NCBI RefSeq assembly: GCF_000512915.1
Contig: NZ_CP007034.1
Coordinates: 992,001-1,056,000 of the forward strand
DNA: 64,000 bases
Origin: Barnesiella viscericola DSM 18177
Lineage (GTDB): Bacteria; Bacteroidota; Bacteroidia; Bacteroidales; Barnesiellaceae
Direction: 5' to 3'
Below, piece after piece: positions 5,023 through 8,763 of this stretch (its first letter is position 1; each line of letters opens with the position of its first letter). The translations under genes were made by a program, and so were the position numbers. Below the pieces are notes generated by a model. That model saw only the letters and a program-made list of their open reading frames with translations, did not search any database and was not told where the DNA came from.

Positions 5023-5892
5023 ATGCGGAATCCACGAACAACACAGTTGCTGCGCCCATGGGTTTGCGGACTTTTCATGACCTGCGCCGTCGCGGTGTGG
5101 GCCGAGTCGCCTGCGCCGCCTCCCATGCGTCCGGGCAACGGGTCGGAACTGGAAATCAAAGGGGGTGAACTGTCGTGGCCCCGCACCGAACAGATGCCTA
5201 CCTCTACCCCCAAAGACCAATTCATACAACGTCGGCTCGACGACCATTTGGAGAAGGCTTCGCTGCAAGTGATGAAACCCTCGACGCTCTTCCCCGAGAA
5301 CCCGTCGGAGTTTATGATGAACGTCATCTTGCTGCATGCCGTGAAGGACAGTATCGCCAGCCTGCATGACGAGACGATTGCCCGCATGGGCGAGATGTTC
5401 CTGATGCGCAATCTGCTGCGCCCCCTCTCGGACGACCGCCCCGACCCGGTCAACAACTTTATGATGGGGGCTCCCAACACCATGCCGTTCGGTCTTGGGA
5501 TAGCCTATGTGGGAATTATCGACCCCGTGGAGCTTTATCGCGAATGGAAACGCAAGAAACAGGCGCTGCGCACCAAGATGGTGCTGATGACGCTCTTCGG
5601 CGACGACAACCGCCTGCTCACCAAGCAGGAGACCGATTCTATCAAACTGAGCATCGAGAAGAAACGGAATGTCCCGGTGAGCCGAATCGCCAACCCGGTG
5701 CTTATCTCTACCTTGTTGGAAAACGACACGATAGTGGCCCCCTCGAAACCCAAGTTCAGGGCTCCGTTGTGGGGCAAAGAACGTCCCGAGATTCCCCTCG
5801 ACACACTTGCCTTGCCGGGCGACTCGACCGTGCGCCCCACCCCTGCGGCGGCTGCCCGCCCCGACTCCATCGCCTCCCGATGCCGGGAGTGA
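5023..5892 (+). CDS. Exported protein of unknown function
   Basis: I do not recognise this 289-residue protein. It begins with a Sec-type signal (basic start, hydrophobic core around LRPWVCGLFMTCAVAVWA, likely cut after AWAE or nearby). The mature part is helical and rich in Met, Leu and charged residues, with a Pro/Ala-rich C-terminus. There is no lipobox, since the Cys residues in the signal are not followed by a fitting site. Starting later, at Met19, would destroy the signal, so 5023 is preferred even though a -7 promoter box ends just 8 bases upstream. Its neighbours are divergent tgt and downstream clpB, which appears to have its own control region, so the context gives little hint of function. 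Confidence 0.7.
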   Translation: MRNPRTTQLLRPWVCGLFMTCAVAVWAESPAPPPMRPGNGSELEIKGGELSWPRTEQMPTSTPKDQFIQRRLDDHLEKASLQVMKPSTLFPENPSEFMMNVILLHAVKDSIASLHDETIARMGEMFLMRNLLRPLSDDRPDPVNNFMMGAPNTMPFGLGIAYVGIIDPVELYREWKRKKQALRTKMVLMTLFGDDNRLLTKQETDSIKLSIEKKRNVPVSRIANPVLISTLLENDTIVAPSKPKFRAPLWGKERPEIPLDTLALPGDSTVRPTPAAAARPDSIASRCRE

Positions 5893-5977
5893 CCTCATCG
5901 CACCCTCTCCTCCCCCCTTACCTGCCCCACCCTGCGAACCTTCGTTCCGCCCCGGTTGTTGTAAGGAGTAAAGCCGC

Positions 5978-6065
5978 GACATTTTGTCAGCCACCGAACC
6001 GGCTACAAATGACCGCCTTACCAGTCGGCCCCGAAAACCGGTCGGCCAGAGTAGACATTTTGTCA
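5978..6065 (+). promoter_or_regulatory. Two identical palindromic sites upstream of clpB
   Basis: The 12-base sequence GACATTTTGTCA occurs at 5978-5989 and again at 6054-6065, 76 bases apart. Its core is an inverted repeat, GACA-N3-TGTC. Two such copies between a gene end and clpB suggest binding sites for one dimeric regulator. I see no CIRCE element (HrcA operator) here. Confidence 0.5.
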
Positions 6066-6109
6066 TGTTAAACAGTTGATTTTCAGACAATATTTCGCTC
6101 ATTTACGAC

Positions 6110-6124
6110 TGGCACTGCTTTTGA
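6110..6124 (+). promoter_or_regulatory. Possible sigma-54 promoter of clpB
   Basis: TGGCACTGCTTTTGA matches the -24 half of the sigma-54 consensus (TGGCAC) exactly and has the right spacing to TTG of the -12 half. The expected C of the -12 GC is A here. The start would be near 6136, about 40 bases before the clpB ATG. The twin palindromes at about -75 and -150 would suit an enhancer-binding activator. Confidence 0.4.
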
Positions 6125-6174
6125 CTATACGAGGGTGTAAATCAAAAAAATGAAAATAGAAAGGAGTACACGAT

Positions 6175-8763
6175 ATGAACTTTGACAATTTTACAATCAA
6201 ATCGCAGGAGGCCGTGCAAAAGGCCGTGCAGATTGCTCGCGACCACAACGAGCAGTCGATCGAGCCGGTGCATCTGCTGAAAGGGATTCTGCAAGTGGGC
6301 GAAAGCCTCACTTCGTATCTGTTCCAGAAGCTTGATGTCAACGCCGGTTTGTTGAACAGTCAGGTCGATCGGGAAATAGAATCGTTGCCCAAGGTAAGCG
6401 GGGGCGAACCCTACTTGAGCCGCGAGGCCAACGACGCTCTTCAAAAAGCCATCGACTACTCTAAGAAACTGGGCGACCAGTTTGTAGCCCTCGAAGCCAT
6501 GCTGATGGGTCTGTTCTTGACGAAAAGTCCGGCTTCGTCCTTCTTGAAGGATGCCGGCGTGACCGAAAAGGAGCTGGGAGCAGCCATCGACGAGTTGCGG
6601 AAAGGGAAAAAAGTTACCGAGGCTTCGGCCGAGGATACCTATAATGCGTTGAGCAAATATGCCATCAACTTGACCGAGCGTGCCCGTAGCGGCAAACTCG
6701 ACCCGGTGATTGGCCGTGACGACGAGATTCGTCGGGTATTGCAGATTTTGAGTCGGCGTACCAAAAACAACCCTATCCTGATAGGTGAACCGGGTACCGG
6801 TAAGACGGCTATCGCCGAGGGGTTGGCTCACCGTATCGTGCGTGGCGATGTGCCCGAGAACTTGAAGAGCAAACAGATCTTCTCGCTCGACATGGGTGCC
6901 CTTATCGCCGGTGCCAAATACAAGGGTGAATTTGAGGAACGACTCAAATCGGTAGTCAACGAGGTGATTCAAAGCGAAGGCGAGATTATCCTCTTCATCG
7001 ATGAGATTCACACCTTGGTGGGTGCCGGCAAGAGCGACGGTGCCATGGACGCTGCCAACATCTTGAAACCTGCCCTGGCCCGTGGCGAACTGAGGGCCAT
7101 CGGTGCCACTACCCTCGACGAGTACCAGAAGTATTTCGAGAAGGATAAGGCTCTTGAACGTCGGTTCCAGATCGTGATGGTCGACGAGCCCGACGAGATG
7201 AGCAGCATTTCGATTCTGCGTGGCTTGAAAGAGCGGTATGAAAACCACCACAAAGTGCGGATTAAAGATGATGCCATCATCGCTGCCGTACAGTTGTCGG
7301 AACGGTACATTACCGACCGGTTCCTGCCCGATAAGGCCATCGACCTGATGGACGAGGCCGCCGCCAAATTGCGTATCGAGGTCGACTCGGTGCCCGAGGC
7401 TCTCGACGAAATCACGCGGCGTATCAAACAGCTCGAAATCGAACGCGAGGCCATCAAGCGGGAAAACGATACCGAGAAGCTGCAACAGCTGGGTAAGGAG
7501 ATCGCCGACTTGAAGGAGGAGGAGACCAAATTCCGCGCCAAATGGCAATCGGAGAAAGAGCTGGTCAACCGCATACAGCAGAACAAGATCGACATCGAGA
7601 ACCTGCGCTTCGAGGCCGATAAGGCCGAACGCGAAGGCGACTACGGCAAAGTGGCCGAGATACGGTATGCCAAAATCAAGGAGAAAGAGGACGACATACA
7701 CGCCACGCAACAACGCTTGCACGAGTTGCAGGGCGACAAGGCCATGATCAAGGAGGAGGTCGATGCCGAGGATATCGCCGACGTGGTATCGCGGTGGACG
7801 GGTATCCCCGTGAACAAGATGATGCAGAGCGAGAAAGACAAACTGCTGCACCTCGAAGAGGAGTTGCACAAACGGGTGGTAGGTCAGGACGAGGCCATTA
7901 CCGCCATTGCCGACGCCGTGCGTCGGAGCCGGGCCGGCTTGAACGATCCCCGCAAACCTATCGGGTCGTTCATCTTCCTGGGTACGACCGGTGTTGGTAA
8001 AACCGAGCTAGCCAAGGCGTTGGCCGAATACCTGTTCGACGACGAGAACATGATGACGCGTATCGATATGAGTGAATATCAGGAGAAATTCAGCGCCACG
8101 CGACTCATCGGTTCACCTCCCGGATACGTGGGCTACGACGAGGGCGGCCAGCTGACCGAGGCCATCAGACGGAAACCCTATTCGGTAGTTCTGTTCGATG
8201 AAATCGAGAAGGCTCACCCCGACATCTTCAACATCTTGTTGCAGGTACTCGACGATGGCCGTCTGACCGATAACAAGGGCCGGTTGGTCAACTTCAAGAA
8301 CACCATTATCATCATGACCTCCAACATGGGGTCGTCGCTGATACGGGAGAACTTCGAGAAGATGACTGATGCCAATCGCTCCGAGGTAATCGAAAAGACC
8401 AAAGAGCAGGTTTTGGAGATGTTGAAACAGACCATACGTCCCGAATTCCTCAACCGTATCGACGAGACCATCATGTTCACGCCGCTTACGAAGAAAGAGA
8501 TTGAAGAGATTGTTTCGCTGCAAATCAACAACATCAAGAAGATGCTCGAGAAGAACGGTGTTACGCTCGAAATCACACCCAAGGCCCTGAGCCTCATCGC
8601 CACCGAGGGTTACGACCCCGAGTTTGGTGCCCGTCCCGTCAAACGGGTTATCCACCGGCTTATCCTCAACCAGTTGTCGAAAGACCTGCTGGCTCAGAAA
8701 GTCGACCGCTCGAAACCTATCGTGGTCGATGCCGAAAACGATCAAATCGTATTCCGCAACTGA
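6175..8763 (+). CDS. clpB: ATP-dependent disaggregase chaperone ClpB
   Basis: A full-length 862-residue Hsp100 protein. It has two N-terminal Clp repeats (about 1-150) and AAA module 1 with Walker A GEPGTGKT (about 204-211) and Walker B LFIDEIH. The long coiled-coil middle domain that marks ClpB lies at about 400-530. AAA module 2 has Walker A GTTGVGKT (about 603-610) and VLFDEIEKA. It forms hexamers and, with DnaK, threads aggregated proteins through its pore. No IGL/F-type ClpP-binding loop was noticed, as expected. An AAAGGAG-type ribosome site precedes the ATG. Upstream control appears to be special (twin palindromes and a sigma-54-like site). A strong terminator follows. Confidence 0.98.

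Follow-up and report, generated by a model that had tools for sequence, protein, structure and literature searches.

The window analysed here, a stretch of 64,000 nucleotides, carries clpB, and the features upstream of this gene are collected in Table 1. Two exact copies of GACATTTTGTCA, their starts separated by 76 bp, occupy 5978-5989 and 6054-6065, as the first-pass annotation had described, and a pattern search of the whole 3,076,856-base genome returns these two exact copies and no others. Allowing one mismatch adds 18 more places genome-wide, and at that density a pair less than 80 bp apart would be expected about 0.01 times per genome. The predicted -24/-12 element TGGCACTGCTTTTGA has the correct spacing for sigma-54, with A rather than C at its last position. 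With position 6110 set as -26, clpB transcription would start near 6136, which puts the palindrome centres at about -153 and -77 relative to the predicted +1, close to the -150 and -75 initially proposed. The proximal palindrome falls on the 10.5 bp phase described below; the distal one is off the phase of the near sites. A third, degenerate site (AGACAATATTTCG), overlooked in the first-pass annotation, occupies a distance from the -24 box that is often taken by clear palindromes in relatives, and it is possibly a weak activator site. Genome-wide statements in this work derive from pattern searches and from individually retrieved stretches.

Table 1 Predicted features of the clpB upstream region and the candidate activator gene.
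Feature	Position	Strand	Remarks
Distal palindrome CGACATTTTGTCA	5977-5989	.	7/8 to TGNCA-N3-TGNCA; 133 bp before the -24 box
Proximal palindrome AGACATTTTGTCA	6053-6065	.	7/8; 57 bp before the -24 box; in phase
Degenerate third site AGACAATATTTCG	6085-6097	.	Conserved; 25 bp before the -24 box
Putative sigma-54 -24/-12 element TGGCACTGCTTTTGA	6110-6124	+	Sequence and genus conservation
clpB, 862 aa	6175-8763	+	NCBIfam TIGR03346, 1312.9 bits vs cut-off 1232.1
Candidate activator, an enhancer-binding protein (EBP; L042)	C1:1194315-1195628, outside the 64-kb window		PF00158 219 bits, HTH_8 46.7 bits

Scanning 5800-6300 for sigma-70-type promoters gave no match, and a housekeeping TAnnTTTG promoter considered at TACAAATG, between the palindromes, was rejected with only 4/6 of the fixed bases. 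We likewise discarded a long dyad (TTGTA/CTACAA) enclosing the distal palindrome, since its spacing differs between genomes. The same palindrome is flanked by GTTGTA and CTACAAATGACC (5955-6015), which are kept in the genus with slightly variable spacing.

The arrangement upstream of clpB, i.e. the palindromes followed by TGGCA[CT]nnCTTTTGA, is kept in nine genomes of the genus, in two of which one palindrome copy differs by one base. Spacing is tightly constrained, with 76-78 bp between the palindromes and 56-57 bp from the second palindrome to the -24 box across all nine. The 25-bp site reads AG[AT]CAA[TC]ATTTC[AG], a degenerate copy of the palindrome, in eight of these genomes and is shifted by one base in the ninth. 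The block TGATTTTCAGACAATATTTC (6077-6096), which follows the second palindrome and precedes the promoter, hardly varies among the nine genomes, a degree of conservation that exceeds what the degenerate 25-bp site alone would account for.

This organisation extends well beyond clpB. The pattern TGGCA-N6-TTG[AC] has 108 matches in the genome, a count that is partly due to a repeated element, since TGGCAAATTCCTTGC occurs in many identical copies (e.g. at C1:1465093, 1661546, 1754106, 1936907, 2792299 and 2797425). Among the matches listed and inspected, those that fall outside long open frames and a short distance ahead of an evident gene start lie upstream of htpG, hsp20, grpE, dnaK and clpB. 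For groES, the source genome has a variant element, TGGCATGAAATTGGT, with the palindrome TGACGTTTTGTCA 35 bp before it. The hsp20 gene (L064) has a near-canonical TGGCACACCCTTTGC (G000:C1:495314-495328), and its upstream palindromes are partial only. We sampled Bacteroidales relatives, one genome per family, and scored sigma-54 sites with a threshold of at least 4.5. Such sites are found upstream of groES in 43/44 genomes, grpE in 20/20 and htpG in 28/29 (shuffled means 3.7, 1.4 and 2.4, respectively). For clpB a strict site is present in just 21 of 38 families (shuffled mean 2.4), with a few families having none at all, and upstream of the EBP gene, which served as a control, the count is 0/15. 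A site also precedes dnaK in 24/24 genomes, three of which belong to the genus of the source organism. A strict pattern with TTG at -12 misses groES promoters, whose -12 half is frequently TGG, CGC or TGC. Consensus sites for HrcA/CIRCE, CtsR, HspR or sigma-32 were found in none of the chaperone upstream sets.

Together, these data bear on several points raised by the first-pass annotation. Its sigma-54 reading is strongly supported by the presence of rpoN, of four EBPs and of -24/-12 sites at other chaperone genes. Its proposal to look for the palindrome before dnaK, groESL and htpG proved fruitful, with the palindrome or variants of it plus a -24/-12 element upstream of all of these and of grpE too. 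On the other hand, it had taken the A in the -12 element as a weakness. Of 134 promoters, 73 have A directly following the -12 G, against 38 with C, 19 with T and 4 with G, and the A is thus not a defect, being the commonest base at this position in the class. Nor is the sigma-54 link a peculiarity of clpB; it is the general arrangement of chaperone genes in Bacteroidota. Judged by its upstream sequence, clpB is a member of a sigma-54 chaperone regulon, since the same pair of elements occurs at dnaK, groESL, grpE and htpG, and a -24/-12 element at hsp20.

The dyad common to the clpB, groES, grpE, htpG and dnaK upstream regions can be written as TGNCA-N3-TGNCA. Matches of at least 7/8 to this general motif are present for groES in 41/44, grpE in 17/20, htpG in 29/29 and clpB in 31/38 cases; shuffles give 5.4, 2.2, 3.6 and 4.1, respectively. 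Counted from the motif start, the distances to the -24 box peak at 25, 35.5, 46, 56.5, 67, 77.5 and 88 bp, and fitting clpB, groES, grpE and htpG yields a 10.50 bp period (n=110, R=0.81). The held-out sites, from dnaK and from groES of named Bacteroidota, fall on this phase as well (u=8.17, n=58; u=6.40, n=42 beyond 30 bp), and taking a single site per promoter gives u=13.5 (n=130). Eleven control motifs had 2-28 matches vs. 168 for the palindrome, and the highest u values among them came from more widely spaced TGNCA pairs (4.3 and 3.5) and from GTNAC-N3-GTNAC (3.2, n=13). All phasing values are descriptive, as orthologues are not independent. Still, shared descent alone is an unlikely cause of the phasing, because the sites are shifted by whole turns across five genes and some 50 families.

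As for the machinery, the genome has one full rpoN gene (C1:1739521), whose product has AID, CBD and DBD domains. It also encodes four EBPs, each above 210 bits and with a GAFTGA or GSFTGA loop, so that both components which the first-pass annotation proposed to look for, rpoN and an NtrC-type activator, are present, and its refuting case of a genome without rpoN does not apply. L040, L041 and L043 have receiver domains and adjoin sensor-kinase genes encoding hybrid kinases. L042 is receiver-less and consists only of the AAA+ domain (loop FGHEKGAFTGA), its lid and a Fis-type HTH, with a long variable linker; it scores far under every specific NCBIfam EBP cut-off, and its AlphaFold model is poor (mean pLDDT of 56.5 and pTM of 0.29). 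An orthologue of L042 is present in 59/60 genomes. In five of them (G009, G010, G017, G027 and G036), which also have rpoN, it is the single strong PF00158 protein, and these five have sigma-54 sites at the sampled chaperone genes and palindromes at most of them. Gene order points in the same direction. In 22/47 genomes, each of a different family, the orthologue precedes groES by 1.6-2.8 kb and shares its strand, and groES is downstream of it in 26/80 named loci, including those of Flavobacterium, Tenacibaculum, Dyadobacter and Pedobacter. The groES upstream regions of these 26 named Bacteroidota loci have a sigma-54-like site in 26/26 and a palindrome of at least 7/8 in 25/26 cases. In the source genome itself, L042 is not adjacent to groES. 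By elimination and by groES synteny, L042 is most likely the activator, and it would then be the protein that binds the TGNCA-N3-TGNCA palindrome.

Three genomes depart from this picture. In G042 an L042 orthologue was not found, yet the chaperone promoters are kept. The three PF00158 proteins of this genome read GSFTSA or GAFTDA, and sigma-54 contact needs GAFTGA; a missing contig is therefore the simpler reading. In G012 and G024 rpoN was not found, though both genomes have the L042 orthologue and chaperone promoters of the sigma-54 type, and assembly gaps are the simplest reading of its absence. PF00158 response regulators in these three genomes (L240, L246, L254, L238 and L237) have GAFTSA, GSFTSA or GAFTDA, and are probably not sigma-54 activators given the replacement of GAFTGA. 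In several families a PF00158 protein is encoded about 10 kb or less from grpE. Ahead of the EBP gene itself, a housekeeping -7 box (TAnnTTTG) lies inside a near-palindrome such as TGTAATTTTGTCA in G015, G027, G032, G037, G038 and G050, with a weaker version of the same overlap in G010. The EBP could thereby repress its own gene, or the coincidence may be a mere overlap of two consensus sequences.

How else could the region be explained? It is highly improbable that the -24/-12 match arose by chance and that clpB is under the housekeeping sigma factor. The A at the -12 position of clpB would sit well with a fortuitous match, but the element is kept in the genus and recurs at chaperone genes in some 50 families, far above shuffles; moreover, in Flavobacterium psychrophilum starts of the sigma-54 type have been mapped at these genes (PMC9723704). 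Accepting a sigma-54 promoter, the palindromes might be repressor sites, or the proximal ones governor sites that damp activation, a notion that draws on the many palindromes centred near -45, close to the polymerase. At glnA, NtrC sites of the governor kind damp activation when NtrC is abundant. We nevertheless find such a role unlikely, as the palindromes span 25-89 bp upstream, are phased and lie clear of the -24/-12 element, and as the 25-bp site of htpG is often its sole clear palindrome.

The promoter could also be of the sigma-54 type with its palindrome read by a response-regulator EBP, i.e. L040, L041 or L043, in which case the chaperones would follow a two-component signal. These proteins do exist, have GAFTGA or GSFTGA loops and adjoin hybrid kinases, but the five genomes in which the L042 orthologue is the sole strong EBP retain the promoters and mostly the palindromes too, and synteny with groES is a property of the receiver-less EBP. 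We therefore judge this quite unlikely. The reading that we prefer, and in which we have considerable confidence given the sequence evidence, is that the region comprises a clpB enhancer and sigma-54 promoter within a chaperone regulon, with L042 as the most likely activator.

Under this preferred reading, sigma-54 RNA polymerase would bind the -24/-12 element at 6110-6124 and be held there as a closed complex. A dimeric activator would occupy the upstream TGNCA-N3-TGNCA palindromes and then assemble into an AAA+ ring, which would open the promoter with ATP. We infer that the signal is heat or misfolded protein; heat-inducibility of clpB in the source organism is itself assumed from the gene family. 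Given that L042 has no receiver domain, our guess is that a chaperone or another partner keeps it inactive, and its control may lie with such a partner, with the level of the EBP or directly with temperature. A second input at clpB is possible, because in F. psychrophilum clpB falls in a co-expression cluster other than that of dnaK and groES (PMC9723704). More tentatively, and with more doubt than belief on our side, a single receiver-less EBP might be the heat-shock master regulator of Bacteroidota, acting from sites phased to one face of the helix and centred as close as -45, and with its activity set by chaperone feedback. Such a system would parallel the sigma-32 and HrcA circuits, with sigma-54 in their place.

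Bacteroidota make up a major share of the human gut flora, and we know of no established regulator of their heat-shock response. With a concrete motif, a strict rule for spacing and a single candidate activator, this question can be tested directly in a laboratory strain of Bacteroides. In addition, enhancers that act from 25 bp before the -24 box, at whole turns of the helix, would bear on how AAA+ activators gain access to sigma-54; most known enhancers lie farther upstream.

Sigma-54 control of clpB is not new in the phylum. In F. psychrophilum, Guerin et al. (2021) mapped starts of their sigma-54 promoter class, SM4, with -24/-12 elements at groESL, lon, dnaK, grpE-dnaJ, htpG, skp and clpB, and left open the activators, with three PF00158 proteins in that organism; the accessible part of the paper does not name an enhancer palindrome or a spacing rule (PMC9723704). 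Using a weight matrix, Carrera-Reyna et al. (2025) predicted Bacteroidota sigma-54 promoters at groES/EL, ibpA, grpE, dnaJ, dnaK, HSP90 and COG0542; in the accessible part of that paper these are promoters alone, without an enhancer motif or an activator for the chaperone genes (PMC12316311). In the main texts of the open-licence literature, as far as these were accessible, we came across no prior description of the enhancer motif, of helical phasing or of an activator assignment. An older claim of a heat-shock gene under sigma-54 concerns ibpB of E. coli, where the ChIP signal at the promoter was at background only and the authors suggest misannotation (PMC4591121). Among characterised activators, L042 most resembles the EBPs of the NorR/PspF type, which combine AAA+ with a Fis-type HTH, and like L042, PspF is receiver-less. 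NorR sites are GTCA-N3-TGAC, and TGNCA-N3-TGNCA resembles them. What sets L042 apart from NorR and PspF is its long variable linker and the position of its putative sites, which come as near as 25 bp to the -24 box.
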